Shown piece by piece: positions 887 through 30,226 of a DNA stretch of 64,000 nucleotides. The notes under the pieces were generated by a model that was not told where the DNA came from, made no database searches, and worked only from the letters and a program-made list of their open reading frames with translations. The position numbers were made by a program, and so were the translations under genes. The first letter of the stretch is position 1; each line of letters starts with the position of its first letter. This DNA is from an uncultured Oscillospiraceae bacterium (GTDB taxonomy: Bacteria > Bacillota > Clostridia > Oscillospirales > Oscillospiraceae), in the NCBI GenBank assembly GCA_947585425.1, contig CANPWZ010000006.1, positions 1-64,000 of the forward strand. The letters are read 5' to 3'.

Positions 887-2041
887 TCAGAAAGTGACGG
901 AGAGCACCCCGGACATGGTTTCGGCGGCGGCCTTCTGTGCCGCTGTGGTGACATGAGCATAGGTATCCAGGGTGAAGCCGGCGCTGTAATGTCCCAGCAT
1001 CCCGGACACGGTCTTGACGTCCACCCCGTTTTGCAGCGCCAGGGTAGCGAATGTGTGGCGAAGATCGTGAAATCTCAACTTCGGCAGCCCCGCCCGCTTC
1101 AATACCCGGTGCAGCATATTATTGACGCTGTCCGGTGAAATCGGTCCGCCGGCAGGCGATGGAAACACATATTCGTCGTGGGAACTTTCCTTTTGCCTTT
1201 TCAGTATCTCCACCGCGTCCGCCCCTACCGAGACGGTGCGGTAGGAGTTTTTTGTTTTCAGCGGCGCCTCTACAATCACCCCTTTGATCCGCGCCACCTG
1301 CCGGCGGACATGGATGGTGCCGGCTCCGAGATCGATATCCTCCCATTTCAAACCAAGCAGTTCGCCCCGGCGCAGGCCCGTCGCCAGCTCGATGTAATAC
1401 ATCTCATAGACGCCGGTCTCTTTTGCCTCCCGGAGGAAGGCGGCCAGCTGGTCTGCCGTAAGGGTGTGCATCTCCTTATGCTCCAACTTCGGCAAAGCAC
1501 AGCCAGCGGTAGGATCAGCCGCCAGGAGCCTCTGCTGAATGGCAAACGTCATGGCCGATGAGATGACCTGGTTGATGTTCCGCACGGTTTTTGCGCTCAG
1601 GCCCTTTGGCTGCTTCCGGGATTCGATGCGTTCTACCCTGCCGTTTCCCAGCAGGCTGAGGTACATTTTCTGCAGGTCCAGCGTGGTCAGCTTTGACAGG
1701 GGGATATCTCCGATGTAGGGCTTGATGTGATGGTCGATGTAGCCGCGGTAGGTTTGGTGAGAGGACGGGCGGACCTTGACGGCGGCGTAATTTGTGAACC
1801 ACACCTCCATCCACTGGCCGACCGTGTACTGCCTTGCCTTCCATATATCGACCTTTTCACATTCCTCCATGGCGCTTTTGAGCTTGACCTTTACCTCGGC
1901 CTGCGTTTTTCCTAAGACATTTTTGTAAATCGGCTTTCCGGTGTTGGGATCATGTCCGGCGGTATACCGTCCCTCCCAGCGGCCATCCTTGCGTTTACGG
2001 ATGCTGCCCTCCCCGTTGGCGCGTTTTCTCGCCATCGTCAA
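887..2041 (-). CDS. Tyrosine recombinase / integrase of element B
   Basis: 384 aa; GEGSIRKRKDGRWEGRY N-terminus; TGLRRGELLGLKWEDID and HDLRHTFATLALQNGVDVKTVSGMLGHYSAGFTLDTYAH catalytic regions; sits next to att. Confidence 0.95.
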   Translation of the reverse strand: MTMARKRANGEGSIRKRKDGRWEGRYTAGHDPNTGKPIYKNVLGKTQAEVKVKLKSAMEECEKVDIWKARQYTVGQWMEVWFTNYAAVKVRPSSHQTYRGYIDHHIKPYIGDIPLSKLTTLDLQKMYLSLLGNGRVERIESRKQPKGLSAKTVRNINQVISSAMTFAIQQRLLAADPTAGCALPKLEHKEMHTLTADQLAAFLREAKETGVYEMYYIELATGLRRGELLGLKWEDIDLGAGTIHVRRQVARIKGVIVEAPLKTKNSYRTVSVGADAVEILKRQKESSHDEYVFPSPAGGPISPDSVNNMLHRVLKRAGLPKLRFHDLRHTFATLALQNGVDVKTVSGMLGHYSAGFTLDTYAHVTTAAQKAAAETMSGVLSVTF

Positions 2042-2343
2042 CCACCTCCGTTTCGTTTCCTTGCTTGTTCTTCGTTCTCATCGTCGAAGGAGTAGGGTGG
2101 GATCTCGCCCAGTTCCTGTTCGATCCCTCTGGCCAGACGGATACCGGTGATGAAGCTGTCCAGGGAGGTCTGGTCCCGCAGGTCGTCCTCCAGATCCAGC
2201 AGATGGAGCAGCAGGACCCGTTGGCTCCTGCCCAACTGTCCCCGCAGGCGGGCGAGGATCCTGTCTCGCTCACGTTCTATCTTTGCTACTTCGGGTGACA
2301 CTGTGGTGAACCGTTCGTGCAGGGCTCTCAGGTATTCTGGCAT
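2038..2343 (-). CDS. Small hypothetical protein (DUF6809-like by recollection)
   Basis: MPEYLRALHERFTTVSPEVAKIERERDRILARL; RBS ggagg before ATG at 2343; overlaps int start. Confidence 0.6.
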   Translation of the reverse strand: MPEYLRALHERFTTVSPEVAKIERERDRILARLRGQLGRSQRVLLLHLLDLEDDLRDQTSLDSFITGIRLARGIEQELGEIPPYSFDDENEEQARKRNGGG

Positions 2344-2750
2344 AGCGGTCGCCTCCTTTGCAGCGACACACAATACCAGTAACCAGAGGAAATAGCCAGG
2401 GGTTAGGCGCACAGTTATCAAACTGTTATCATTTGCCGTGGGTATGCCTCTCTCTTGTTTCAGGCGTGGTACTTTTTGCACTGCTCGGAAGGCCGCAGTG
2501 TCACGCTTTGGGGTTCCACAGTCCTTGATCCTCTAAGGCTCAAAACCGCAAAATGAGAGGGGGCTGTGTAGTTACCTTACCGCCCTGAAAAGCGGACTTA
2601 CAAGCGTGACATGGCTCCCTGCTTTCTACGCATTTTGGAACTTCACAGCCCTTGAAAACAGGGACTTCACAGAGCCCGTCAAAGGGGGGCCTGTGTACCT
2701 GCCCTCTAAAGCGGTTTCTATATGCGTAGAAAATTCTTTTTTCAAAAGGC

Positions 2751-2782
2751 GGGGCCGCTCCATTTGCGAATGGAGCGGCCCC
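2751..2782 (-). terminator. Terminator hairpin of the 2798-3634 gene
   Basis: ggggccgctccatt tgcg aatggagcggcccc. Confidence 0.75.
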
Positions 2783-2797
2783 CGAATCCTTGCGCGA

Positions 2798-3634
2798 TCA
2801 GGTCACATAGACCCGGTACTCGGTGTGGTTATAGACTCCATCCTTGTACAGATCCCACGCCTCCACACTGTACGCTCCCGGTGGGCAGGAGTTGAACAGC
2901 TTGGTCAGTTCACTGTCCCGCCACGGCCAGAAGGACCAGCCCCCGGCGCTGTCCGGGATGCTGAGGCTGATCCTGACGTAGGGGGTGCCTTTACTTCCAT
3001 ATCGCAGCTTTCCATTGACGCTGGTGTTGGGATCGGTCCCGGCCAAATTCATCAGCGTGTACTGCATCCGGCGTGTCTCATAGAGATTGCGGACGAACAA
3101 GTAGTCGGCGTCAGCGCGGTCGAAGTGCCGCGCCTCCGGTGCTGGTAGCTCCACTGCGGGGAAACTGCTCCAGTCACAGGTAGGCGTGGGCAGAGGTGGC
3201 AGCGGTCCCTCCGCGAACATGTTGGCATCCCAGCGGCTCACGTCCTTGATGGTGTAGAGGGTGCCGTCGTCGCATGGGATCACGTCGCCCACTTTTGGAA
3301 CGTACTGGCTGCCGTCCGTCGGCAGGGTCACTGTGCCGCTGGGCTTGGACTCCCCCGGCGCCACGCCGGTGTAGGGCTTGTCCGTCTCGATCTGGACGGT
3401 GCCGTCCCAGTAGACGTTGAAGTCCACTTTGGCCCCGATGTCCCGGAGCCGGACGTAGTTCTCGTCGTTGATCATGTAGGCGGTGAGTTCCACCCTCTGG
3501 CTGTCGATGTAGACGGCGCAGTTGCTCCGGGTGGCGGTGAGCCGTGCCACGGCTGCCTGGGCTCCGCTGGTGAGCGTCACTCCGGCCAGGACGCCGGCGA
3601 CTACGAGCAGCAGATTTCTGATACGATTCTTCAT
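2798..3634 (-). CDS. Secreted protein with copper-amine-oxidase-N-like / stalk domain
   Basis: Signal peptide MKNRIRNLLLVVAGVLAGVTLTSGAQA; VYIDSQRVELTAYMINDENYVRLRDIGAKVDFNVYWDG; RBS ggaggagg upstream of ATG at 3634. Confidence 0.75.
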   Translation of the reverse strand: MKNRIRNLLLVVAGVLAGVTLTSGAQAAVARLTATRSNCAVYIDSQRVELTAYMINDENYVRLRDIGAKVDFNVYWDGTVQIETDKPYTGVAPGESKPSGTVTLPTDGSQYVPKVGDVIPCDDGTLYTIKDVSRWDANMFAEGPLPPLPTPTCDWSSFPAVELPAPEARHFDRADADYLFVRNLYETRRMQYTLMNLAGTDPNTSVNGKLRYGSKGTPYVRISLSIPDSAGGWSFWPWRDSELTKLFNSCPPGAYSVEAWDLYKDGVYNHTEYRVYVT

Positions 3635-3801
3635 TGGATTGACCTCCTCCTGGTATTGTTTTGGTGCTTTCGCAAACCAAACATACCGAATAAAGAGAGA
3701 AAAGTCTATCAGAACCGTGCTGGCAATACGGAGAAAGAACTGACGGGAAACGCGGCAGATCACCGAGACTTTTTCTTTGATCAGGCGGGTCATTTTTTAC
3801 C

Positions 3802-5214
3802 TCACATGGACATCGTCGGTCCCTGGTACTCCTCATGGTCGTCCAGCTTGTGCCCCATGGCGATCTTTTTCTCTCTGATCCTCTGCCGCAGCTTGCGGTC
3901 GATGTTCTGGATCATACTGGCGGCGTCCCTGGGCTGAACGTTATCCCGGAACACCCGGCTCAGCTGGTGGAGCAGGCGGACGACGGACAGCATCACGGAC
4001 GGCTTCCCCATGCTGTCCCAGCGATCCAGGAAGAACCGCGCGTACTCGTTCCCCTGGGCCGCGGACACCGTCAGCCAGTACCGGGCCTCCTCCCGGTCCT
4101 GGGGCACCTCTTGGCCCATCAGATACAGCTTGCCGAGGACGTACTGCGCGTACTGGTTTCCCGCCTCGGCGGAGGCGGTCAGATATTCCACCGCCCGCTC
4201 CACGTCTTTGGTTACCTCTTTGCCGGCGAGGTACATCTTCCCCAGCCGGTAGGCGGCGTACTCCTCTCCGTCGGATTCGTCCCGCTGGTCACGATCCTCG
4301 AAGGTGAACGTCCCCAGCCGTATGTTCTCAGCCTCCTGAATGACGGCGTTCTTGATGGCCCGGAACTCCTTCCGCTCAGACAGCGGCGGGCGTTGCCGAT
4401 CCTGCTCCGAGTAGTAGTCCTCTATCTCACACTGGAGGTCCCACCAGGTTTGGTAGCAGCGGTCCACCACCGGCAGGCGCTCCAGCTCGTCCACGATCTC
4501 ATCCACGGCTTTCTTCACCCGCTTGGGGAGGTAGCCGTATTTCTTTTTGCCCGTCACAGATTCTAGCTGTGAGACGAGGGCATCCATCTTTTCCTCCGCC
4601 GCCGGACAGTCGCAGACGCCCTCCCGCATCTGCCGGATCAACTCTCTCATGGCCCGGCGGCTCTCTTTAATCAACTCATCCCGTGACGCGGACTTCTGCT
4701 CGTAGGTGTGGAGCATCTCCTGCTTGAAGATGTCGTTGACGAGGACGGACTTGATCGTTCGGATACCCTCTCTGCTCAGGTATGCCTGCCCCGGCCTGGC
4801 GGACCACGCCATCATGTGGACGTGGGGATGGTCCCCCTCGTCATGGAAGGCGGCGTACCATCGGAAGTCTTTTGGCGGGATGTGCATGGCGGCAGCGATG
4901 TCGTTGCGGTGAGCCAGCAGGAGGTTCCGCCACTGACGCGCGTGGTCGAAGCCCAGCCGGGCGGCGTCCTCCCGTTTCAGTGAGATGATGTGGGTCCAGA
5001 TGTTGCCGGGGTACTCGTTCACCTCCGCGATGGCTTTCTCCAGATTGATATCCTCCTCGTCCCCGAACAGGCCGTGGGAACGGGGGCGGCCCGCCATGTA
5101 CTCCACATAGCCGGAGGGCAGCAGCTCCACCCCGTCCCGTGTGCCGATGTACCTGACGTACCCTCCCCTGCCTCCGCCTTTGAGGTAGGGGCTCTTTACG
5201 ATCAGTCTTGCCAC
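3802..5214 (-). CDS. MobP-type (MobP3-like) relaxase with C-terminal Sel1 repeats
   Basis: MARLIVKSPYLKGG...YVRYIGTRDGVELL; FHDEGDHPHVHMMAWS histidine motif; AAYRLGKMYLAGKEVTKDVERAVEYLTASAEAGNQYAQYVLGKLYLMGQEV Sel1 repeats. Confidence 0.88.
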   Translation of the reverse strand: MARLIVKSPYLKGGGRGGYVRYIGTRDGVELLPSGYVEYMAGRPRSHGLFGDEEDINLEKAIAEVNEYPGNIWTHIISLKREDAARLGFDHARQWRNLLLAHRNDIAAAMHIPPKDFRWYAAFHDEGDHPHVHMMAWSARPGQAYLSREGIRTIKSVLVNDIFKQEMLHTYEQKSASRDELIKESRRAMRELIRQMREGVCDCPAAEEKMDALVSQLESVTGKKKYGYLPKRVKKAVDEIVDELERLPVVDRCYQTWWDLQCEIEDYYSEQDRQRPPLSERKEFRAIKNAVIQEAENIRLGTFTFEDRDQRDESDGEEYAAYRLGKMYLAGKEVTKDVERAVEYLTASAEAGNQYAQYVLGKLYLMGQEVPQDREEARYWLTVSAAQGNEYARFFLDRWDSMGKPSVMLSVVRLLHQLSRVFRDNVQPRDAASMIQNIDRKLRQRIREKKIAMGHKLDDHEEYQGPTMSM

Positions 5215-5720
5215 GAGTCGTCCTCGCTTTCGTCATATCGTTCCCGCGCCTTTCGCTCAAAGGTCAGGCGGCCGCCGGCGGCCCGCACGTTTTTCACGCT
5301 GTCCGCCCGGATCTCGCTGAGGTAATCCGGCTCGATCTTCAGATAGTCCAGCAGGACGGAAAGACCCATGTCGTGTTCCACCGCCAGCTTATAGAGGAGT
5401 TTGGCCATCCTGTCCTCGAACATTCCCAGCCGCCCGTCGATGGCGGACTGGATGGCAGCGGGGAGCAGTTCGTTCTGCTCCGCCTCCAACAGATCCAGGC
5501 GGCGGGTGATGGCGCGCTCGATGAACTCGTTCTTGCTTCGGCTGCCGTCCAGACGATAGTCCCGGTCCAGGCGGTACTCCGTCACAGGGGACAGGCGAAC
5601 GGTCATTTTGTGTGTATTTTCCATTTCGTCGAAAAATCCCTCCAAAATCGTGTATTGGCGCTTGTTGAGCGCCGTTTTTTCTAAGTCCGGGGCGGGCTGT
5701 GAGGTCACATAGCTTTCCAC
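5202..5720 (-). CDS. Putative relaxosome accessory / DNA-binding protein
   Basis: Overlaps relaxase start; MTVRLSPVTEYRLDRDYRLDGSRSKNEFIERAITRRL resembles ribbon-helix-helix MobC-like N-termini; start codon uncertain. Confidence 0.55.
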   Translation of the reverse strand: MESYVTSQPAPDLEKTALNKRQYTILEGFFDEMENTHKMTVRLSPVTEYRLDRDYRLDGSRSKNEFIERAITRRLDLLEAEQNELLPAAIQSAIDGRLGMFEDRMAKLLYKLAVEHDMGLSVLLDYLKIEPDYLSEIRADSVKNVRAAGGRLTFERKARERYDESEDDSWQD

Positions 5721-5835
5721 CCCTCCGAAATGAGGTCACCCCACGCCCTGGGAAACTGCCCGCACTGCGGGCAGAAGTGGTTGGAGGGTCGCCGTTGGCG
5801 GCGGCACTCCTTTATCCTGCTTTGTCCTCACCGCC

Positions 5836-6282
5836 CTAAAAAACGTCCGTATCCTCGGGGAGAGGGGGCAGTTGCGCCAGTTTCTTTTTGGCCTCATATC
5901 GGGCGGTATCCAGTTCAAGCTTGTCCAGGTCACGCCGGAGCCTATCGTCGATGGCCCGCTGGATGGGGAGGACCCTGTAGTGGAGTTTGCCGTTGTACTT
6001 GCCGCCGTCGTGCATATAGATGTGGGTGCGCTCTACCTCGATGAGTCCGGCCTCCACCAGCTCGGTCACATATTTCGCCACGGTGTTCTTGGACATCCGC
6101 AGCGCCTTGCCGATCTCCTTGTAACCCAGCACGATGGAGTAGTCCCTGCGGTTCTCCATCCGCATGAGGAAGGCGTAGAGCGCGATGGCGTTGGCGGACA
6201 GTCCCAGCCCGAACAGCTCGTTGGGCAGCGGGAAATAGTTTTTGATGGGATCGTGCTTGGGATAGGGATAGTACTTTCTCAT
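5836..6282 (-). CDS. Helix-turn-helix / replication-initiator-like protein
   Basis: YFPLPNELFGLGLSANAIALYAFLMRMENRRDYSIVLGYKEIGKALRMSKNTVAKYVTELVEAGLI winged-helix. Confidence 0.7.
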   Translation of the reverse strand: MRKYYPYPKHDPIKNYFPLPNELFGLGLSANAIALYAFLMRMENRRDYSIVLGYKEIGKALRMSKNTVAKYVTELVEAGLIEVERTHIYMHDGGKYNGKLHYRVLPIQRAIDDRLRRDLDKLELDTARYEAKKKLAQLPPLPEDTDVF

Positions 6283-6488
6283 TCGCCGCCTCCCGTGTGC
6301 TTTTCCACCCAGCGGATGAACTCTTCCTTGGGCACCACGATCCGATTCCCGATCCGCAGAGACGGGAAATCTTTTTCGCGCAGCAATTCATAGCCGCTGG
6401 ACGGAGAGATGCCGAGTACTTTTGCTACCATCTGCGCGTTGAGGAACAGCGGCAGTTCGTCATAGGTCTTGTAGACAGATTCTTTCAT
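6279..6488 (-). CDS. Excisionase-like / HTH_17 protein
   Basis: LFLNAQMVAKVLGISPSSGYELLREKDFPSLRIGNRIVVPKEEFIRWVEKH. Confidence 0.8.
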   Translation of the reverse strand: MKESVYKTYDELPLFLNAQMVAKVLGISPSSGYELLREKDFPSLRIGNRIVVPKEEFIRWVEKHTGGGE

Positions 6489-6551
6489 GTTGATTTGCTC
6501 CTTTTCAGTTTTTGTTTTGAGTTGAGTTCTTTAGGGTCGGCGCTCAGTTAT

Positions 6552-6653
6552 TCATAGGACATCACTCCCTTTGAGAATTAAGGATACCGCTCCCACGAAA
6601 ATGTGGGAGCGGTAACCTTATTGCCATCTCAACAGTTTTGTGATATCCTATGA
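6552..6653. promoter_or_regulatory. Nested inverted repeats in the divergent promoter region of the polymerase-like operon
   Basis: Outer arms tcataggacatcac (6552-6565) / gtgatatcctatga (6640-6653), 13 of 14 complementary; inner hairpin taccgctcccac gaaaat gtgggagcggta (6585-6614). Confidence 0.6.
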
Positions 6654-6673
6654 TCACCTTCGGAGGTGATCCT

Positions 6674-9600
6674 GTGAGCTATCGGATCTATCAGCTGTCC
6701 GCCAAAGCGATGACCTGCTACGCCAGAGAGACGGACGGCGTCTATACATACCATCTGAACCGCGCCGCCACCCAGTGGTGCCGGGTGTTCGGCGCGCGCC
6801 ATGAGCAGGACAGCAGCGCGCTGTTCTTCCAGACCATGTGCGTGGTCCGGGGTAACGATTTTACGGAAGAACATAACGCTCTCATCGAGGACCTGGCCGA
6901 CGTGATCTTCTACATGGACTTCTCAGGCATCTTCGATCGCAATACCACGCCGAAGCACCTGGAGCGCCAGAGGAAGGCGGAGGACATGTTCCGGCCGGAG
7001 GGCGTGTGGCTGGACTTCGGGAATGGTGAGCAACGCTATCTTGCCTTCGAACGGTCCGGCAGCATGAGCCGTCAGGCGCAGCTGTCCTTCCTCCGGGCGG
7101 ACGTGTACGACGCTGTGCGCCGCCGCATCCAGATGGACATGACCATCCGGGACTGCCAGCTCAGCAAGCTCTACGCCTACAACGGACTGATGCTGTCCAG
7201 CGGCGTGCGGGTGGAGGGCGTGGACATCGACCGGCCCCACCGGGTCATCGTGGTGGACAATCCCACCGCCGCCGTCGGCCCGGTGGACGTGATCACCGTG
7301 GAGGACGACGGCACGGACAACAGCACCCGGCGGTATCACCGGGTGGAGCGGCGGACCACCATCGACGTGACCTGCCTGGACGGGGAGGGGATCATCTCCA
7401 CCCGGTACGCCCGGCGGATCGACAAGGCGTTCTGCGGACGGCACGTCCACCACTCCTTCCAGATCCGTCTGCCTTACGTCAAGGGGATGCTCCATGAGCT
7501 GGACATCCATGACCTTTTCCGGTATGACGACGTCCGAACCATCACCGACATCTGGGGCGTGGAGCACAACACAAAAGACGTGGACGTGATCCTTACCAGG
7601 AGCATGTTCAAGGGGTTCGGCTGGCTGAAAGACAGCGGCATGACCTGGGAGGACTACTGGGCGGTGTTCCGCAAGTACCGCCACGCCCTTTACATCACCA
7701 ACGTCAGCAAGGTGGAGCCGGAGGGACTCACCGAACTGAATTATCAGTTCCTGAACACCGTCTCCCTGCGGGCGGACGAGTTCCGCCCATACGATCTGCC
7801 GGAGGGCTGGGACCACAGCCCGGAGGAGGACGGGCGCCGCTGGCTCACCAAGCAGACGGAGCTGGCCTACTACAAGCTCAGGGCGGACCGAGATGGCAGA
7901 GCGGACTACTTCCTGCGGGAGCTGGACCGCGTTCACCTTTTTGACAGGGACAAGAGCAGAGAGTACCACATGGCCGCCGCGCTGAAAAAGAATCCGAGAC
8001 TGATCGCGGAGCCCGCCTACGTCAAGCGACTGGACGACCGGGCGGAGCAGATCGTCCGGCAGTACGCGGTGGGGCGGCTGATCGTGGAGGGGGACAACCG
8101 ATTCCTCTCCGGCAATCTGCTGGAGCTGCTGATCCCCTGGCTGGACCCGGAAGACGCCAAGGGCCGGAAGGATCGCCGGCGGCGGGAGTGGATCAGGACG
8201 AGCTGCCGGATCCCCGACGGCACCTTCTACGCCCCCGGCGCGGCCTACGAGCACGGCGCGCCCTGCACGCTGCTCCGCAATCCCCACATCGCCCGCAACG
8301 AGGAACTGCTGCTCACCTGGTATGACGCCAGCAGGAACAGGAACATGCGAGACTACTACTACCGCAATCTGACCGATGTGGTCTTTGTCAGCGACCTGAT
8401 GCTGTCCGCGGCCCGGCTGGGCGGCGCGGACTACGACGGCGACATGGTCAAGACCATCGCGGACCCCATCATCAACGCCTGCGTCCGAAGGAACTACCGC
8501 GCCTCCGACGGACAGGAGGGGCAGGCCCTCTCCAACGAGGAGAACCTGCCTCTGCTGATGATCCCGGCGGCGGAGCCCCGGATCGCCGACGCGGACGACT
8601 GGCGGGCCCGGATGGAGACGGTGAAGGGGACCTTTTCCTCCCGGATCGGGCAGATCTGCAACGCCGCGCTGGACCGCAGCGTCATCGCCTACAACGAGAA
8701 CTCCGACGGCGAGGAGCGCCGCCGCTGCCGGGAGGAGACGGAGACGCTGGCCATCCTGGTGGGGTTGGAGATCGACTCCGCCAAAAGCGGCGTCCGCCCG
8801 GACCTGGACGAGTACCTGGGCCGGCGCGACATCCAGCGCACACCGTTCCTCCGATACAAGGACCTGGTGGAGCGGGCGGAGGAGCGCCGGGCCTGGTACG
8901 AGCCCACGCCTGCCCAGCGGATGAAAGATTATTTCGACAGCGTGGACTGGTCCGAGGTGGACTCCAATCTGGAGCGCCTGCCCCTGCTGGCCCGGCAGCT
9001 GAAGAAGCGCACCCCGAAGATCGTGGACAAGCCCGCGGAGGACAGCGAGCTGTTCACCTTTGCCCAGCGGCCCGACTGGAAGGAGCGGCTGGATCCAACC
9101 ACTCTGGAGCGGGTGGGCGAGCTGCTGCGGGACTATGAGGCCGTCCTCTCCCGCATCCGCGCCTGCCGCGCCCCCGTTCGGAACCTGCCCCGCAAGCAGG
9201 ACATCGACCGCATCCTCTACGCCAGAGGGCAGGAGAACGACTGGGACGCCGATGAGCTGTATGCGCGGCTCCAGGACCTGGACGCGAGGCACATTTCCCG
9301 GCTTCGTCAGGCCATCCTGGAGGAGCGGTGGCACCTGATGGACGAGGGTGCGCGGGAGCGGTTCCTGACGACTTGGCTTCCGGGGCACGCGGACCTCTTT
9401 GATTTGCTGTCTGATTTCCGCTTCGGCGGCTACCGGGTGCTGGCGGACCTGATCATGGATCTGGACGACGCGGCGGAGGCCAAGGAGCGCAAGCAGCTGT
9501 TCCGGGAGCAGGACTCCCCCGCCTTTACCGGCATGATGGAGGCGTACCTCGCCAGGTCCGGCGCCCAGACCTACCGGGAGGCCGTTGCCGCCTACTGCCG

Positions 9601-9736
9601 GACCCTGCTGGACAACTTCATCGAGCCAGTGGAGGCGGTGGCCTATGTAGTTGCCCTGGGCAGGCGGGACCTCCTGTGGGACCTGCTGCCCGACGCCGTT
9701 CTCCCCAACCTGCTGGAGGTGCGCCATGGTAAATGA
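6674..9736 (+). CDS. Two-barrel (QDE-1/YonO/RdRP-like) RNA polymerase superfamily protein, putative
   Basis: GTG start with RBS ggagg (6662-6666); CTLLRNPHIARNEELLLTWYDAS, ARLGGADYDGDMVKTIADP (DxDGD at 8429-8443), AILVGLEIDSAKSGVRPD: same order and spacing style as the RNPC.../GGDLDGD/AVD.pKtG blocks of cellular RdRPs. Confidence 0.8.
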   Translation: MSYRIYQLSAKAMTCYARETDGVYTYHLNRAATQWCRVFGARHEQDSSALFFQTMCVVRGNDFTEEHNALIEDLADVIFYMDFSGIFDRNTTPKHLERQRKAEDMFRPEGVWLDFGNGEQRYLAFERSGSMSRQAQLSFLRADVYDAVRRRIQMDMTIRDCQLSKLYAYNGLMLSSGVRVEGVDIDRPHRVIVVDNPTAAVGPVDVITVEDDGTDNSTRRYHRVERRTTIDVTCLDGEGIISTRYARRIDKAFCGRHVHHSFQIRLPYVKGMLHELDIHDLFRYDDVRTITDIWGVEHNTKDVDVILTRSMFKGFGWLKDSGMTWEDYWAVFRKYRHALYITNVSKVEPEGLTELNYQFLNTVSLRADEFRPYDLPEGWDHSPEEDGRRWLTKQTELAYYKLRADRDGRADYFLRELDRVHLFDRDKSREYHMAAALKKNPRLIAEPAYVKRLDDRAEQIVRQYAVGRLIVEGDNRFLSGNLLELLIPWLDPEDAKGRKDRRRREWIRTSCRIPDGTFYAPGAAYEHGAPCTLLRNPHIARNEELLLTWYDASRNRNMRDYYYRNLTDVVFVSDLMLSAARLGGADYDGDMVKTIADPIINACVRRNYRASDGQEGQALSNEENLPLLMIPAAEPRIADADDWRARMETVKGTFSSRIGQICNAALDRSVIAYNENSDGEERRRCREETETLAILVGLEIDSAKSGVRPDLDEYLGRRDIQRTPFLRYKDLVERAEERRAWYEPTPAQRMKDYFDSVDWSEVDSNLERLPLLARQLKKRTPKIVDKPAEDSELFTFAQRPDWKERLDPTTLERVGELLRDYEAVLSRIRACRAPVRNLPRKQDIDRILYARGQENDWDADELYARLQDLDARHISRLRQAILEERWHLMDEGARERFLTTWLPGHADLFDLLSDFRFGGYRVLADLIMDLDDAAEAKERKQLFREQDSPAFTGMMEAYLARSGAQTYREAVAAYCRTLLDNFIEPVEAVAYVVALGRRDLLWDLLPDAVLPNLLEVRHGK

Positions 9737-10598
9737 GTGGAGCGAGTTCTTACAGTACACCGGCACGGTGACCTACGCAGCCAGAAGCAAACGGGATACC
9801 AGCTATCTGGGCCGGTTCACCTGGGACACGCTGCTAGACTTTGAGGGGCTGGTGCGGGTGCTCACCGTGCTGGCCAGAGGTTTCCTGTTCCATGAGCCGG
9901 ACGGCAGTCTGGCGGAGGACCCCCGAGGCCGGCTGGAGTACGCCCGGCGGGCGCTGTGCGCCTGGTGCAGCGTGCCGGATGTGGAGGACGCCGCGTCCAG
10001 GGAGGAGTGGAGATACCGCACCGACTTCCGGGATCTCCACGGCGAGTTTCCAAACTTGGTGGACGAGGACGGCGGCGGCTGGTTCTGGAGGCATGTCCGC
10101 CGGGTGGGAGCCTTCGTGGAGGAACACCCGGAGGTGGCGCCCAAGACGGCGGTGGACAAGGCGCTGGCCATTAAAAAGGGATTTGACGCGGTTTGGAGGA
10201 AGAAGGTCATCCAATTCCAGACGCCGCTGTTTTCCTCCAAGGCCCTTGGCCTGTGGCTGATCCGATTCGAGTCCGTGCTGGCGGACGGGTTGGAGCAGGG
10301 CCCGCTGCGGAGGGAGGACATCGTCCTGCCGGCGGAGCTGACGAAGAAGGTTTCGGCGATGCTGCCCAAGGGCCTGCCGTCGGAGGTGGTCTGCACGCTG
10401 ATCGCCTACTATGCGGCCAACAGGCCGGAGGACACCGGCTGGGTGGTGCTGCCGGTGGCCAATTTCGACGCCTACTTCGGGAACACCAGCTTCGGGCGGA
10501 AATGGCTGCAGATGATACCCAGGGAGATCATGGAGCGGGAGTCCGGGTTCGGCGTCTGCCGGTACCGGGTGCGGGAGGAGTTTCAGATCAGGGCATGA
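9726..10598 (+). CDS. Conserved hypothetical partner protein translationally coupled to the polymerase-like gene
   Basis: ATG at 9726 overlaps the upstream stop (9734-9736) by 11 nt; about 290 aa, no family recognised. Confidence 0.8.
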   Translation: MVNEWSEFLQYTGTVTYAARSKRDTSYLGRFTWDTLLDFEGLVRVLTVLARGFLFHEPDGSLAEDPRGRLEYARRALCAWCSVPDVEDAASREEWRYRTDFRDLHGEFPNLVDEDGGGWFWRHVRRVGAFVEEHPEVAPKTAVDKALAIKKGFDAVWRKKVIQFQTPLFSSKALGLWLIRFESVLADGLEQGPLRREDIVLPAELTKKVSAMLPKGLPSEVVCTLIAYYAANRPEDTGWVVLPVANFDAYFGNTSFGRKWLQMIPREIMERESGFGVCRYRVREEFQIRA

Positions 10599-10637
10599 GA
10601 AAAGCCCGGTCCTGAGGATCGACCGGGGCTTTTCTTT
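10597..10637 (+). terminator. Terminator of the polymerase-like operon
   Basis: gaaaagcccggtc ... gaccggggcttttcttt. Confidence 0.7.
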
Positions 10638-10839: not shown

Positions 10840-11655
10840 TCACGCCGGATTTCTCTTCGCCACCACCACGAACCTGCCGTCTGTAGTGTGATAGCTGCAC
10901 GTGGAGAGCGTGAGGAGCTGGTCCCCGTACTCCGCCGTCACGCCGGTGTCGTAGAGGGCCGCATCACGGATATGGCTCAGGTATTCGTCAAAGACCGCCT
11001 CGTCCGTCAGGTCGGTATAGTTATAGTAGCGGAAGGCGGTCTTGTCGGTCACCTCGTAGGCTTTCGAGTAAAACGCCGCCAGCACCTCGTATTCCCCCGC
11101 CCCGTCCAGCGTGTCGAAACGGATGACGGGGTGCTTCCTCCAGAAGGACTCGTCTGCGTAGTCCGTGATGGCGGTGAACATGGCGCCGTTCTTCATGTGA
11201 TGGCCGTAGACGATATAGTTGCCGCAGCCCTCATAGCAGCTCCCGTCCAGAAAGGGGACGCCGCTGACGGAGCGTGTCCCGTCAAAGGCGCGGCGGAGGT
11301 AGTGCTCAGGGTCGTCCGGGGTGTGCATGACCGGGTAGTTGAGCTTGGTCCCGTCGATGCTGACCCAGCCGAACAGGTCGTGGTTCTGCTCGTAGAGGAC
11401 GTCGTATTTGTGGAAGCCGGACGGCGTCGGCTCCGCCTGGGGCGGGGGACTGCCGGCGGGAGCGGCAGGGCCGGGAGTGGCCGTCGGTTCGGCCTGCCCG
11501 ATCTGGTCGATCAGCGCCTGGAAGGCTTCCTCGTCCCGCTTTTCGCGGACCAGCTGGGAGATGACTATGTACGCGGATACGCAGACCAGGAGTAGGCAGC
11601 ACACGCCGAGGATGATCCGCAGGCGCGGTTTCCCGCCCCTCGTTTCCCGTTTCAT
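10840..11655 (-). CDS. srtB: Class B sortase
   Basis: NHDLFGWVSIDGTKLNYPVMH, NYIVYGHHMKNGAMF, TLSTCSYHTTDGRFVVVAKR. Confidence 0.93.
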   Translation of the reverse strand: MKRETRGGKPRLRIILGVCCLLLVCVSAYIVISQLVREKRDEEAFQALIDQIGQAEPTATPGPAAPAGSPPPQAEPTPSGFHKYDVLYEQNHDLFGWVSIDGTKLNYPVMHTPDDPEHYLRRAFDGTRSVSGVPFLDGSCYEGCGNYIVYGHHMKNGAMFTAITDYADESFWRKHPVIRFDTLDGAGEYEVLAAFYSKAYEVTDKTAFRYYNYTDLTDEAVFDEYLSHIRDAALYDTGVTAEYGDQLLTLSTCSYHTTDGRFVVVAKRNPA

Positions 11656-11730: not shown

Positions 11731-14700
11731 TTATTTCTTGATGCGCCGGCCCTTATTGCCAGGTCTCTTCTGCCACGGCGTAGGCCACAGTGCCGCGGCT
11801 GCTCCGACGACGCCGATGACCATCAGCGCGATCCACAGCCCCAGATGGCTGTTGTCGCCGGTGGTGGGCGTGTCGTCCGTGGGAGTGGTAGGCTTGGGCG
11901 TGGAACTGGGTCCGGGCGTCCCGCTGGGACCAGGCGTCTCACTGGGTCCGGGCGTCTCACTGGGTCCGGGCGTCTCGCTGGGACCAGGCGTCTCGCTGGG
12001 GCCAGGCGTCTCGCTGGGCGGAGGCGGCGGGGGCGGGGTGCCGGGCTTGTCGTTAACAAACTCCACACTGTCCTCGCCGTTCGCCTCTATGATCCCCTTG
12101 CCGTCGTCCACATCATCCGTATCAGTGACGGTGGTGGTATAGCCGTCCTGGTTGGCCTCTGTCTCGTCCACCGTGTAGGTGACGCCCGCGGGCAGATTAT
12201 CGATTTTCACCTTTTCGCCGCTCTTCAGGGTGAACGTCAGTTTGCTGCCCGTGATGGTGAACTTCTCCTCGACAGCGGTTCCGTCGGCGTTGTGCTTTGT
12301 GATCGTCACACCATCTTGCCAGCCCTCCGCCGTACCGGTCGGGGCATCGAAGGTCACGGTGAAGTGCCAGTCCTTGCTCTTGTTCCCGGCGGCGCCGGTG
12401 ACCGTCTTGGTGACGATCAGGCTGCCCAGCGGATCCTTCGTGTTGGTGAAGTCAGCCCGCTCCGGGGCTTCTGCCCGGATCTCGCCGGATATGCTGCCGT
12501 CCTCGCCCACTGTGCCGGTGCCGGTGACCTCGGTGGTGTAGCCGCCCGCGTTGGCCTCCGTCTCCTTTACGGTGTAACTGAGGCCGGCGGGCAGGCCGCT
12601 GGCGGTCTTGCCCTCCCCGTTCTTCAGGGTGAACGTGGCCACGCCGTCGACGAAGGTCATGCCGCCATAGGTGCCGTCGACATCAGCGGCCCGGGTCCCG
12701 TCGGCAGCGGTGCCGGTCAGCGTCACGGTGAAGGTGAACTCCCTGGTCTTGTCTCCGCCCTCGCCGGTGACCGTCTTGGTGACGGACAGATCGCCGGGGA
12801 GGATCTTGTGGTTGACAACGCTGGCCTCGACCGCGGCGTCCTCGAGGATGGTCCCGGTGTCGCCGGTGTAGGTGGTAACATAGCCGTCGGTATTGGCCTC
12901 TGTCTCGGTCACCGTGTAGGCGGCGCCCGCGGGCAGACCGGTGATCGTCACAGACTCGTTGTCCCTGAGGGTGAACGTCAGTTTGCCGTCCCTCCACGCG
13001 ACATTATGGTTTTCAGAGCCGCGGGCGCTGAACGTCAGCTTCACGCTGTCTTGGTTGATTGTCTTCCCCTCCGGGGCGGTGAACTCCACGCTGAAGGTGA
13101 AGTCCTTATCCTGGTCGCCGCCCTCGCCGGTGACCGTCTTGGTCACCTTGAGGCTGCCGGGCTTCGGGTCTTCCGTGGTGACGGGTATGTTGACAAAGTC
13201 TGCCTTGGCCTCGCTGCCGCCGGGGATGATCCCACTGGCGGTGCCATCTTCGGGACTTTCGACGGTAAAGCCCGCCACCGGACTCTCTTCCACGGTATAG
13301 CCGAACCCCTTGGGCAGATCGGTGGCGGTCAGGCTCTTGCCGGCCCCCAGGTCGAACTCCGCTACGCCATTTGTAAAGTGCATGTTGCCATACTGGCCGG
13401 TGATGGAGCTGACCGGGGTGCCGTTGGCAGCGGTGCCGGTCAGCGTCACCTTGAAGTGGAACGACGCATCCCCCGCATCGCCGGAGACCGTCTTGCTCAC
13501 GGTCAGTTCCCCGTATTCGGGCGAATCATTGATGTTGGTGAACTTCGCCTCGGCGGTGCCGTTTTCCGGAATCGTCCCGGTGGAATCGGTGGAGCCGGTG
13601 GTGTAGCCCTCGTAGGCTTCCTCGTCCACCGTGTAGGTGACGCCCGCGGGCAGGCCGGTGATCAGCACAGACTCGCCGTGCTTCAGGGTGAACGTCAGCT
13701 TGCCGTCCGTGATGGAGGCGCTCTCCGTGACACCGTTTCCGGCGGCGTCATACTTTGTGATCGTCACACCGGTGAAATCGGTGTCTACCGGTTCAAAGGT
13801 CACGGTGAAGGTGAACTCCTTGGTCGTGCTCCCGGCGGTGCCTTCGACCGTCTTGGTCACGAGCAGGTTCCCCTTGTCCGGCGACGTCTCGGGGCCCTTC
13901 TTGTTGGTGAACTTCGCGCTGGCGGTGCCGCCGCCGGGGATGGTCCCGGTGGCGCCGGAGGACTCGGTGGTGTAGCCGTCCGCGTTGGCCTCTGTCTCGG
14001 TCACCGTGTACTCCGTGCCCTCGGGCAGGCCGGTGACTTCCATCCGTTCGCCGTGTTTCAGGGTGAACTCCAGCTTGTTGCCCTCGATGGAGAGGCTCCC
14101 CGTGACATCGTTTCCGTCGGCGTCATACTTTTTGACGATCACATCGCTGTAACCGTTTTCTGCCGGTTCAAAGGTCACGGTGAAGGTGAAGCCCTGATCC
14201 TGGTCGCCGCCATCGCCGGTGACCTCCTTGGTCACGATCAGGTCCCCCTTGTCCGGCTCTTCCGTGGGATCCTTGTGGTTGTTGAAGACAGCCTTAGCTG
14301 AATCGCCGTCGTCGGGGATGGTCCCGGTGGCGCCGGAGGAGGTGGTGGTGTAGCCCTCCGCGTCCGTCTCGGTCACCGTGTAGGTGACGCCCGCGGGCAG
14401 ATTCTCGGCGGTCATGGTCTGGCCGTGCTTCAGGGTGAACGTCAGCTTGCCGTCCGTCCATGTGGCACTGTGCGTTTCCTCGGTTCCACCGTCGCTGAAC
14501 GTCACCTTCACGGCATCCGTCCACTTACCCATCTCCGACCCTGCCGGGACGGTGAACTCCACGGTGAAGTGGAACTCCTTGTCCGTTTCGCCGCCCTTGC
14601 CGGTGACCTTCTTGGTCACGGACAGGCTGCCCGTATTCCTGGTGTTGGTGAACTTTGCCTCGGCGGTGCCGCCGCTGGGGATGGTGCCGGTGACACTGCC

Positions 14701-17700
14701 GCCCTCGGGCGTGGTGGTGTAGTACTTCGCGCTGGCCTCGGTCACCGTGTAGGTGACGCCCGCCGGCAGGTCGGTGGCGGTCTTGCTCTGGCCGTGATGC
14801 AGGGTGAACTCCGCCTCACCGTTTGTGAAGATCATGTCGCCGTACTTGCCGTTGATAGTCTTGTCGCTCAGCGTCACCTTGAAGTGGAACTCCTTGGCCA
14901 TGTCCCCGCCCGGGCCATCCACCGTCTTGGTCACCTTGAGGCTACCGGGCTCCGGCTTGTCTTTGTGGTTTTCAAAGGACGCGCTGGCGGGTTCTTCCGC
15001 CTTGATCGTGCCGGATATGCTGCCGCCTTCGACTGTGCCGCTGCCGGTGACCTTGGTGGTGTAGCCGTCCTGGTTGGCCTCCTGCTCGGTCACCTTATAG
15101 GTGGTGCCATCGGGCAGACCTTCGATCTCCACAGACTCGCTGTGCCTCAGGGTGAACTCCAGCTTGCCGTCCGTCCATGTGGCACTGTGCGTTTCCTCGG
15201 GTTCACCGCCGTTATACTTTGTGAGCGTCACACCATTTTTCCAATCCGCCGGTGCTCCCTCCGGGGCGGTGAACTCCACGGTAAAGGTGAAGCCCTTATC
15301 CGTCTCCCCGGCGGTGCCGGACACCATCTTGGTGACGATTAGGTTCCCCTTGCCCGGCTTTGCGTTGTTAAAGTCAGCCGTAACCGTATCGCCGCCGGGG
15401 ATGGTCCCCTCGTTGCCGGAGGACGTGGTGATGTAGCCCTCTCCCGTGTAGTCGCCCTCGGTCACCGTGTAGGCAAGGCCCTTGGGCAGATCGGTGGCGG
15501 TCAGGCTCTCGCCGTGCCTCAGGTCGAACTCCGCCACGCCGTTGGTGAAGGTCATGTGACCGTAGGTGCCGGTGAAGCTTTCATCCACAGTTTCGCGGGT
15601 TTCGTCCGTGTAAATGGTCACCTTGAAGTGGAACAGCCTGGTCGTGTCCCCGTCCTTGCCGGTGACCGTCTTGCTCACGGTCAGATTGCCCTTGTCCGGC
15701 GGCGTGGTGTGCTTATCGTTGGTAAAGACCGCCGTGGCCGCGTCGGTTTCAGAGATGGTGCCGCTGGCACCCTTGGGCGTGGTGATGTAGCCGTCCTGAT
15801 TGGCCTCTGCCTCGGTCACCGTATACCCTGTGCCGTCGGGCAGACCTTCGATCTTCACAGACTCGCCGTGCTTCAGGGTGAACGTCAGCGTATTACCGTC
15901 CCACTTGTCGTCGTGGGCTGTGGTTCCATCAGTGGGGTAGAATGTCAGCTTCGCGGTGCTTTCCCAATCATCCACCGTCTGCCCCTCCGGGGCGGTGAAC
16001 ACCACGGTGAAAGTCCAGTCTTTCTCCGTGTCCCCTTCGCCGGTGACCGTCTTGGTGACCGTCAGGCTGCGTGTCGTGGGACTCTGCTCCGGGCCGCGGT
16101 TGATGTACTCCAACTTGGCGGCGGCCTTCGGGGGGATGAAGCCCGTCTCATCGCCGTGGACCTCAGTGGTGTAGCCCTCGTATTTGTCCTCGGTCACATG
16201 GTAGGTGATGCCCGCCGGCAGGTCGGTGGCGGTCATGGTCTCGCCGTTCTTCAGGGTGAACGTCAGCGTCTGAGCATCCGTCCACTCGACGTTGTGGCCT
16301 GTGGTTTCACCGTCGCTGAACGTGAGCTTTACCATTTTCTGATCCACCGGGGCGCTGAAGGTCACGGTGAAGCGGAACGCCTGGTTCGTGACGGCGCCGC
16401 TGACCGTCTTGGTCACCTTGAGATCACCGGTCTCCGCCGTGTCTTTGTTGTTAGTAAAGTCCACAGTGGCGGGGTCTCCCGCCTTGATCGTGCCGTCGGT
16501 ATTGCCCTCGATAGTTGTAGTGTAGCCGCCCTTGTTGGCATCTGGCTCGGTCACCGTATAGGTGGTGCCCACGGGCAGCTCGCTGATCGTCACAGACTCT
16601 TCGTGTTTCAGGGTGAACGTCAGCTTATTGCCGTCCGTCCACTCGACCTTGTGGTTTTCGTGTACTGTGGTTTCATCAAGGGTTTCATCAGCGGGGTAGA
16701 ACGTCATCTTCGCGGTGTTTTCCCAATCCACCGAGGTTCCATCCGGGGCGGTGAACTCCACCGTAAACGTCCAGTCCTCGGTGCGGCTGCCGGCGGCGCC
16801 GGTGACCGTCTTGCTCACGGTCAGGCTGCCGGTGTTGGCAGTGTTGGTGAAGGTGGGGACATCCGTGCCGTCCGGGAGTCCGGGGGTATATGTGATCTCC
16901 GCCTTGAGCGCTGCGCCCTCTCTGGACACCTCCACCGTCACATCGTACACCGTTTCATCATATGTGACGTAGCCCAGGGCGTCCGCCGGCTTGACCTCCT
17001 TGATGGTGTACTCGTAGGTCCCCTCTTTGTCGAATTTCACGGAGCCGAAGTCCACCCAGCCGCTGGCGTCATTGGTCACGGTGAGCGGGCTGGACGTGCC
17101 GTCCGGCATGGGGGAAGTGCCCGTCACGCCATCGACGGTGGACTCGCCCGGGGTCAGGGTAAAGCTGAACTGCCCCGCCCTCAGCGTGGCATCCGTCAGC
17201 ATCTTCCGCGCCTGCAGGGGGACGCTGATCTCGTTGGGGTTATACTCGTTGGTGAAAGCGAGATCGCCCGCACCCGGCTCCGCGCCGTCCACGGTCGCCT
17301 TCGCGCTCAGCGGCCAGGTGTTCGTGTCGCTGTTGTACTCCTCCTTTGTGACGACAACAGTGACCGTATATACTTTGCCGTCATAGGAGATGCCCGGCTG
17401 GCCGTCGTACTTCTCCCGCACGGTGTACTTGTAGGTGCCCGCCTGCGTAAAGACGAGACCCTCGCCAAAGAGCGCCACCTTGGCGGTCCCGTCCACAGGC
17501 GCTCCGTTGGGGACCTCCTGGGTCTTGCCCGCCAGCGGGTCGCCCGCCGGGTTGTCGGCGTCGGGCGTCACCACGAAGGTGAACTTGCCGGCCTCCAGCG
17601 TGCCGCCCTTCAACGTCTTGGTGAGTTCCACATTGACGGTGGCCTCCCCGACCGTGGGCATGGTGTTGGTGTATTCCACCTTCGCCTCACCCGTTTTGCC

Positions 17701-20700
17701 GAGGTCGCCGGAGACGGTGTAGCCACCTTCCGTTGCAGTGCCTTCCTTCGTGACCGTGCCACCGGTGACAGTCGCCGTGGTGCTGTACTCGCCGGACTCC
17801 TCTGTGACGGTGTACTTCGTGCCCAGGGGCAGGTCGTAGATCCGCACGGACTCGCCGTCCCTGAGGGTGAAGGTCCACACATTGTCCTTCGGGTGGTCGT
17901 AGTTGTGGTTTGTGGTCTCGTCGTCGAAGACCAGCTCCACGCCGTTCCAGTTGACCGACACCCCGGCCGGGGCGGTGAACTCCACCTTGAAGTGGAAGTC
18001 CGTCCCCACGACCTCGTCGCCGCCCTCGACCGCCTTGGAGACAGTCAGGCAGCCGATCTTGGGCTCATGCACCTCGCCGAAGTCGTTCACAAACGCGACG
18101 TTGTCCATTTCACCCGCCGTGTCAATGGTGCCCTGGCCGTCGTTATCGCCGTCGCTGTCGGTAACGGTGGTGGTAAAGTAGCCTCCCGTGTAGTTCTCGG
18201 TCACCTCGTAGGCGGTGCCCACGGGCAGGTTGGTGATCTGCACAGACTCGCCGTGCTTCAGGGTGAACGTCAGCATATTGCCGTCCCACGTGACGACGTG
18301 CTCCGTGGATTCACGGGCGCTGAACTTCAGTTCCGCGATCTTTTCCCAATTCACCGAGTCCTCATCCGGGGCGGTGAACTCCACGGTGAAGTTCCAGTCC
18401 TTGTTGGGATCGTCGGCGTTGCCGGTGACCGTCTTGGCGACCTTCAGGCCGCCCGTACCCGGCGCACCCTTGTAGTTGAAGAACTCCTCGCTGGCCTTGC
18501 CGCCCGCCGGGATGATCCCGGTGGCGCCGCCAGCCGGCGTAGTGGTGTAGCCCTCCGCCGTGTAGTTGTCCTCGGTCACGGTGTACTTGATCCCCGCGGG
18601 CAGGCCGGTAGCGGTGGCGGTCTTGGTGGGATCCTCGCCGTTCAGCTGGAAGGTGGCCACACCGTTGGTGAAGGTCATATCGCCAAATTCGCCGCTGATG
18701 CTGGTATCCTCCAGGGTCACGGTGAAGTTCCAGTACCGCTCGGTGTCGCCGCCGGAGACCGTCTTGGTCACGGTCAAGTCGCCGGTCTTCCGCTCGTTGG
18801 TGAACACGATGTTCACGGTGGCGCCCTCGTCGGTCACGGTGACTTTCACGCCGTTGCCTACCGGCTCGCCGCCGGTCACCGTCATGGTGTACTTGTTATT
18901 GTCCATGCCCGTCTCGGTCACGGTGACGACGGTCCCCTTTGGCAGGTCCTCCAGCAGGACGGCTCCGCCGGCGGGCAGGGTGATGTCCTTCTTGCCGTCT
19001 GTAATGGTGCCGCTCTCCGTGCCGGTGTACTTGACCTCCGGTGTGTCCTCTGTCCCCTCCGGGAATTCCAGCTCTACATGGAAGGTAAACGTGTCGGTCG
19101 TGGACAGATTCGCGGGGGTGACCGTCTTGGTGATCTGCACGTCGCCGGTTCCGGGCTTGGTTTCGTGCTTGGTGTTCTCGAAGGAGACCAGCGTCACATT
19201 GCCGCCCTGGTTAGTCAGCGTGCCGGTGGCGTAGGATACCGATTCACCGTTTATGGTGGTGTCGTAGTCAGCTGCGCCGACCTCGGTAACGGTATACGTC
19301 GTCCCGTTGGGCAGACCCGTGATGGTGATGGTCTGGTTGTGCTTGAGCTTGATGTCGCCGCCGCTCTCAAACTTCACATTGCCGTCCGCGTCGACCGTGA
19401 CATTGCCGCTACTGCTTGCCTCCGCGCCGGGGCCGGTCAGGGTATAAGGATAAGACCCCGCCAACGTAACGTCCTTCGGCGGCGTGAGTTCAAGAGTAAA
19501 TGTAAATTCCGTCTTGGGATCTTCTTCGCCGAGGACGGTCTTCTGGATGGTCAGATTGGCGGGGTCAGGCTCTTTGGAGTTGGTGAAGGCCACCTCTGTG
19601 GTGACGGTTTCGGTTTCGTCCGCCGTGATCTTGCCGGTGGCGGAATTGCCCTCTTCGCCATTCGCGCTGACAGTATGCCCCTGGGGGTTCTCCTCGGTGA
19701 CCTTGTAGGTGACGCCATCGGGCAGGCCCTTGATGGTGATGGACTGGCCGTCCTTCAACTCCACCCTGGCCTGGCCGTCCGTGAAGGTGATCGTGCCGCC
19801 CTCAGCGCCGGGAGTGAGGCTGTCGTTGTTCTGGTGTTCCACACTGCCCGTGTAGGGGTACGCCCCGTCCAGCGGGCCGAATTCCTCCAGCTCACCCTTC
19901 AGCTCGATGCGGAAGGCGAAATAGGCCTCCTTATCCCCGTCGGTGCCGGTGACGGCCTTGGAGATCGTAAGGCCGCCGGTCTTGAGCACGGGGTTGGGGA
20001 TGATCTCGGTGAGGACCTTGGCGTCGCCGCCGATCTCAACGCCGCCCTGGTTCAGGATCTTGTTGTCGGTCTCGCCGCCGGTCTCGTCTGTCCTGAACGC
20101 GCCGTTTCCGTCATAGGTGTGCTTGTCATAGGCATGCTCGTTTACCTTGACGGAGAGCGCCACCGTCCCCTTGTAATTGGCGGGGACGCTGTCCAGCGTC
20201 CAGGTGATCTGGTGCGTGCCAGAATCATACGCGATGGTGACGTTGACATTCTGGTCCTCTATGGTGACGATTCCAGTGGCAGACTTCGGCTCAGCAGTAG
20301 CATTGAGCGTCACGCCGTCAAAGCTGGCGCTGACAAAGTCCACGCCGGGATCCAGAGCGTCGGTGACCACGACCTTGGCGGCGTCTGGCTTGTAGTTGCG
20401 CCAGGAGATCTCATACTCTACCGTATCGCCCACATTCAGGCGATCACCCGGGTTGTGGTTGGTCTCCTTCTTCTCCACCTCGGGGGTGGGGTTCTCCACG
20501 GTCTTGGTCTGCTGCACCGCGTCGCCGTTGATCTGCACAAAGGCGGTGTTGTCCACATAGCCCGCCGCGGCGGCGGTGCTCAGCACCTCCACCGTCAGGG
20601 TCACCTCGCCGGAGGCCCCGGCGGGCTGGTAGCCCAGGTTCCAGACGACCTGGCAGTTGCCACCCTCGTTGGTGTACTGGATGACGGGAACGCTTTTTGC

Positions 20701-30046: not shown

Positions 30047-30226
30047 TCAGACCCAAACGCTGACCCATACGCGGAAACAACGCTATGGGGCGGACGGAAC
30101 GCATGGAGCGGAGAGTATCTTTTTCTGTGCGAAAGACCTCCAAACGGACACAAAACTGCGGGAAAACAGTATCGAAGGCACCTCATAACCCGGAGGTCGC
30201 AGGTTCAAGTCCTGCCGCCGCAACCA
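30047..30226 (+). repeat. Terminal direct repeat copy 2 (right end of element B / att), ends with tRNA-fMet 3' fragment
   Basis: See 581-760; followed by cggagcaagc..gcttgctccggcgtttttt, the probable original tRNA terminator. Confidence 0.92.

Follow-up and report, generated by a model that had tools for sequence, protein, structure and literature searches.

The gene at 9726-10598 (+ strand) begins inside the end of a gene for a YonO-type RNA polymerase, and it raises the question of what part its product plays beside that polymerase. The window analysed here is the whole stretch of 64,000 nt from a contig of an uncultured Oscillospiraceae bacterium. SPbeta YonO is a proven DNA-dependent single-chain RNA polymerase that transcribes the SPbeta late genes (Forrest et al. 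2017, PMC5467207), and whether it needs further factors at promoters was left open by the authors (PMC5467207). We suggest, with a probability of roughly 60%, that the downstream protein, here called the partner, is a second subunit dedicated to the YonO-type polymerase, with a winged helix that directs the enzyme to particular start sites. Since there is now a candidate adjacent subunit, and also a natural clade without it, the promoter-factor question for YonO becomes directly testable.

The partner is a real, selected gene. Its reading frame begins ATGGTAAATGAG and is translated into 290 aa, which are predicted to form a helical N-terminal part, middle helices and a C-terminal winged helix. 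The ATG at 9726 lies upstream of the polymerase stop (TGA, 9734-9736), giving an overlap of 11 nt (9726-9736), and the Shine-Dalgarno sequence GGAGG (9715-9719) lies within the polymerase gene, 6 nt 5' of the ATG. Directly 3' of the partner stop there is an intrinsic terminator (~10597-10637, + strand; -21.8 kcal/mol, z -2.75). Both the 11-nt overlap and the terminator right behind the gene had been pointed out in the initial annotation, and the coordinates agree with it. The overlap is not due to chance, since the junction is conserved in relatives down to ~56-60% protein identity (with partner starts at -8, -5, -1 or +8 relative to the polymerase stop), dN/dS against the nearest relatives (90-93% identity) is 0.14-0.23, a sign of purifying selection, and the substitutions in the same comparison are mostly at codon position 3.

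The upstream gene (6674-9736, + strand) encodes a YonO-type double-psi-beta-barrel RNA polymerase of 1019 aa with the motif GGADYDGDMVK. Its start is more likely GTG 6674, preceded by the Shine-Dalgarno sequence GGAGGTGA (6662-6669), than ATG 6650. The protein matches PF05183 (RdRP), a eukaryotic-type RdRP family, at 5e-12, which is above the cut-off, and phrog_8308, a PHROG of unknown function, at 2e-47; the polymerase profile A4 also matches the structures of plant RDR2 and Neurospora QDE-1. Searches by tblastn retrieve YonO-type polymerases of Bacillus, Enterocloster and Thomasclavelia phages, including SPbeta YonO, with which GGADYDGD aligns and the catalytic aspartates are invariant. By these alignments the window polymerase is assigned to the YonO superfamily, an already known group. 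Like SPbeta YonO (PMC5467207), it is a one-chain double-psi-beta-barrel enzyme with a DxDGD motif, encoded in firmicute mobile DNA. However, YonO ends in a zinc ribbon and has no partner gene, whereas the window polymerase has no C-terminal zinc ribbon and is overlapped by a partner gene.

The partner had been described as obligate-looking, and the distribution of the two genes supports this description. Among 99 relatives, matches to polymerase and partner are co-located at all loci that include the polymerase 3' end. The scan of named genomes yielded 24 loci, the most distant polymerase having 44% identity, and a partner of 271-299 aa lies directly downstream at each of those with the polymerase 3' end on the contig. 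In an evenly drawn sample of 301 genomes from the host family, all full-length polymerases whose 3' end can be read (20/20) have the partner, either overlapping or within ~80 nt. Homologues that usually lack this neighbour were not seen in the window family; such absence is seen only in the distant SPbeta YonO clade. The partner copies without a polymerase that were examined are remnants, including the apparent orphan in genome G369, upstream of which only the polymerase C-terminus remains. At one locus (L052) the partner is frameshifted. A gene fusion at another (L047) was considered and rejected, because the polymerase is frameshifted in this MAG and the partner is intact.

Phage relatives link the presence of the partner to the architecture of the polymerase. 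Single phage polymerases used as queries brought no matches in the viral scans; an alignment of 11 diverse polymerases found 80 viral YonO loci. Phage polymerases without the ribbon are followed by a downstream gene of ~200-315 aa, usually overlapping, and most of these phage partners carry a C-terminal CxxC...CxxC zinc ribbon of their own (group A6), while group A5 is without it. When bacterial and viral loci are pooled, a partner is present in 62 of the 63 resolvable loci whose polymerase lacks the C-terminal zinc ribbon and in none of the 41 whose polymerase has it (Fisher p 3e-28, a value that treats related loci as if they were independent samples). Three loci with a truncated or split polymerase gene (L099, L126 and L135) were left out as non-resolvable. 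The sole exception, L094, has a divergent polymerase of 1169 aa that lacks a zinc ribbon, and no partner was recognised there. One partner-profile match within the ribbon set (L114) was discounted, as it resembles a GIY-YIG homing endonuclease.

The ribbon polymerases group as a single clade (support 1.0) in a FastTree tree, and the window polymerase falls outside the SPbeta YonO clade; in this dereplicated set, the partner occurs with 54/55 ribbon-less and 0/31 ribbon polymerases. In the SPbeta genome, the ribbon profile of the A6 partners matches the C-terminus of YonO itself (4e-7). A distant partner gene was not found in that genome, where the best matches besides YonO had E values of 0.03 or weaker. 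The simplest reading of the tree and profiles is a single change that left the ribbon on the polymerase and removed the rest of the partner, or the same change in the opposite direction. YonO sits in one derived-looking clade of the polymerase tree, and in that clade the polymerase itself has the ribbon and the rest of the partner is missing. The phage YonO-type polymerase genes are also often split (L097, L099, L113, L135-L137, L109 and L111), and several of the split genes hold a GIY-YIG-like ORF between the pieces, which suggests intron insertions.

The partner itself belongs to no described family that we could find. None had been recognised in the initial annotation, and the searches of Pfam, PHROG, NCBIfam and PADLOC were all empty for it; the anti-phage defence families of PADLOC were matched by neither polymerase nor partner. 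PDB sequence searches with the partner returned nothing usable, and tblastn against phages and plasmids gave zero matches. In an alignment of 22 sequences, the N-terminus (MVNEWSEF...) has N3 and E4 invariant, and so are R30, R44, R51, W80, R122, H123, W157, Q163, Q165 and R180. The AlphaFold2 model (pLDDT 89.7, pTM 0.89) has at its C-terminus the elements H219-232, H244-251, H255-263, E269-274 and E277-282. From this helix-helix-helix-strand-strand order we predict, with moderate support, that approximately residues 203-282 form a winged helix. A PDB fold search with the model gave nothing significant, and its weak matches include winged helix-turn-helix repressors of the HlyU/SmtB/CadC type (ArsR-type; E ~1). 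Comparison of PDB structures with the sequence profiles of the window and phage partner models gave zero matches. Neither family nor PDB sequence searches found a sigma2/sigma4-type sequence or fold, and the best PDB fold matches are weak and not sigma. The initial annotation had offered a specificity factor, a primer/initiation factor or a nuclease partner. A specificity or initiation factor fits best, because the C-terminal part is predicted to be a winged helix; the nuclease was rejected, since the partner has no nuclease family match and the 22-sequence alignment contains no conserved acidic metal-binding set.

The window partner is likely, though not proven, to be homologous to the phage partners, as judged from profiles and models. 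The two phage groups A5 and A6 are homologous to each other (hhalign 98%, E 4e-14). Between the window family (A7) and A5, profile-profile matches are weak but collinear, and 0/120 shuffles reach them, a result to be read with caution as these tests were picked after the sequences had been seen. A direct comparison of A7 with A6 gave no significant match, and neither did a plain sequence search of the window family against the large phage partner group. The window-family profile A3 matches the partner of one phage contig (L059) at 2e-8, where the polymerase is 27% identical. Three of the seven top viral structure (BFVD) matches of the window model (A0A8S5PM02, A0A8S5SP62 and A0A8S5P5W3) are among the four best of the phage-partner model. 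The phage partners (phrog_30716 and relatives, annotated as "unknown function") share with the window partner their position, the order of parts, an N-terminal xNE motif and a predicted winged-helix-like region. They differ in that they have 200-315 aa and most end in a CxxC...CxxC zinc ribbon, whereas the window family (271-299 aa) has a middle insertion and no ribbon.

We propose that polymerase and partner are produced together through translational coupling and may assemble into a two-subunit enzyme. The helical N-terminal part of the partner would likely bind the polymerase, and the C-terminal winged helix would contact DNA and steer the polymerase to start sites. That the partner is part of the enzyme is suggested by the translational coupling, the constant pairing and the exchange of the ribbon, and that it touches DNA is suggested by the predicted winged helix. 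Choice of the start site is the likeliest task by analogy with sigma and AR9 gp226 (PMC9209446), though the fold would be unrelated. AR9 gp226 and phiKZ gp68 are phage-encoded extra subunits that a divergent double-barrel polymerase needs for promoter-specific initiation, so that the job proposed here is analogous to theirs (PMC9209446). However, these are 464-aa-class proteins with sigma-like elements in the multisubunit nvRNAP of jumbo phages, the window partner has a predicted winged helix, and there is no sequence match between them. Such a holoenzyme would allow genes of the window's mobilizable element to be transcribed without host sigma factors. Counting against a subunit role is the fact that YonO itself works without a partner.

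The pair stands divergent to a mobilisation module (887-6491, - strand) identified by family matches. It comprises a tyrosine integrase (887-2041), a MobL relaxase with Sel1 repeats (3802-5214), a MobC-like protein (5202-5720), a Rep-like HTH_36 winged helix (5836-6282) and an AlpA/HTH_17 excisionase-like protein (6279-6491), all on the - strand. The earlier remark that the pair alone is on the + strand, with the other recognised genes of the element on the - strand, is thus consistent with this module. The C-terminal Sel1 repeats of the MobL relaxase make a domain combination that looks unusual. Several relatives keep this gene order; in others the place of the module is taken by a serine recombinase, a MobA/VirD2-type relaxase, NikA/MobC and an AAA_25 (RepA-type) helicase. 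Because the mobilisation neighbours are exchanged between relatives and the pair is kept, the pair is a portable unit that serves more than one kind of mobilizable element.

Between the module and the pair lies a palindrome, TACCGCTCCCAC-GAAAAT-GTGGGAGCGGTA (6585-6614), whose right arm is included in a 22-nt motif, GTGGGAGCGGTAACCTTATTGC (6603-6624). Nearly all bacterial relatives have this motif in common, in the form GTGGGAGCAGTATTCATATTGC, ~65-105 nt before the polymerase start, adjoining a sigma-A-like promoter and often as the right arm of a palindrome. In the window, the candidate host sigma-A promoter (6621-6649, + strand), by consensus match only, consists of TTGCCA (6621-6626), a 17-bp spacer and TATCCT (6644-6649) with a GTGA extended -10, and its spacing recurs in relatives. 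The 301 genomes contain nine matches to the motif (<=2 mismatches), and 4/9 are directly upstream of a window-family polymerase. An Rfam search of the region upstream of the pair gave no credible family. Read on the - strand, the motif or palindrome often precedes a run rich in T and then resembles a leader terminator for the divergent operon (relatives L031-L055).

Adjacency and a winged helix would suit a repressor or an origin-binding protein as well as a specificity factor, and both alternatives have to be weighed. The main rival, which we nevertheless consider improbable, is a replication or priming partner that binds at an origin, which could be the palindrome (6585-6614) or the oriV/oriT of the element, and recruits the polymerase to make an RNA primer, either for replication or for synthesis of the second strand of the transferred element. 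Plasmid initiators typically contain winged helices, and the bacterial copies adjoin genes for relaxases, Rep-like proteins and AAA_25 (RepA-type) helicases. Phage partners also match the PriX primase (2e-4, two members), the Rep3_N WH1 domain (0.007, one member) and replication-initiation PHROGs, all of these weakly, but every one of these matches is below the curated cut-offs. Many partner-bearing phage relatives are, in addition, long and presumably complete tailed phages, and SPbeta YonO, the sole characterised relative, transcribes late genes (PMC5467207).

The partner could instead be an autoregulator, a winged-helix repressor or activator that acts on the promoter of the pair via the 22-nt motif and is no polymerase subunit. 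The motif occurs once per locus, just 5' of that promoter, in nearly all bacterial relatives whatever their neighbours, and among the predicted DNA-binding proteins the partner alone accompanies it in every case. But the motif is absent or weak in two loci that have the pair (L047, and L045, where the contig begins), the translational overlap suggests a complex, and the mutual exclusion with the polymerase ribbon, like the ribbon-bearing phage partners, points to a structural part of the enzyme. We therefore regard an autoregulator as quite unlikely. Such a structural part might lack sequence specificity and, as a structural or processivity subunit, complete the polymerase at its RNA exit or DNA clamp, the role that the zinc-ribbon tail would have in SPbeta YonO; the movement of the zinc ribbon between partner and polymerase could indicate this. 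Yet the ribbon is absent from the window-family partner alignment though the partner is conserved, and the predicted winged helix suggests DNA contact, which makes a subunit of this kind the least probable of the three.

A dedicated specificity subunit would have consequences beyond this element. As a partner stands behind every mobile-element relative with a readable end and behind most phage relatives, our findings suggest that most "single-chain" YonO-type polymerases are really two-subunit enzymes. More tentatively, and at somewhat less than even odds, we hypothesize that most of them are obligate two-subunit enzymes with an undescribed winged-helix specificity subunit, that single-chain YonO is the exception and kept only the partner's ribbon, and that in gut Clostridia the enzyme passed from phages to mobilizable elements and serves transcription without host sigma factors there. 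If this is true, the simplest known relatives of cellular RNA polymerase are usually paired with a second subunit, and some mobilizable elements bring their own transcription enzyme. In the open-access literature (preprints and most subscription papers being outside this scope), we found no earlier description of the partner family or of the split into two forms.

The pair lies at the edge of the conserved part, since similarity stops just past the terminator in two of the three nearest relatives. Downstream of it, on the - strand, are a sortase-like gene (10840-11655) and, beside this, a giant repetitive ORF of 5336 aa that resembles a surface protein (11731-27741). A direct repeat of 180 bp (581-760 and 30047-30226, 97.8%) ends in an apparent tRNA 3' end (GGTTCAAGTCCTGCCGCCGCAACC), and the two copies are possibly the attachment-site pair of a 29-kb element. 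The same genome contains a second copy of the polymerase (G000:C30:17603-20431, L014), which is 96% identical and is cut by the contig end.
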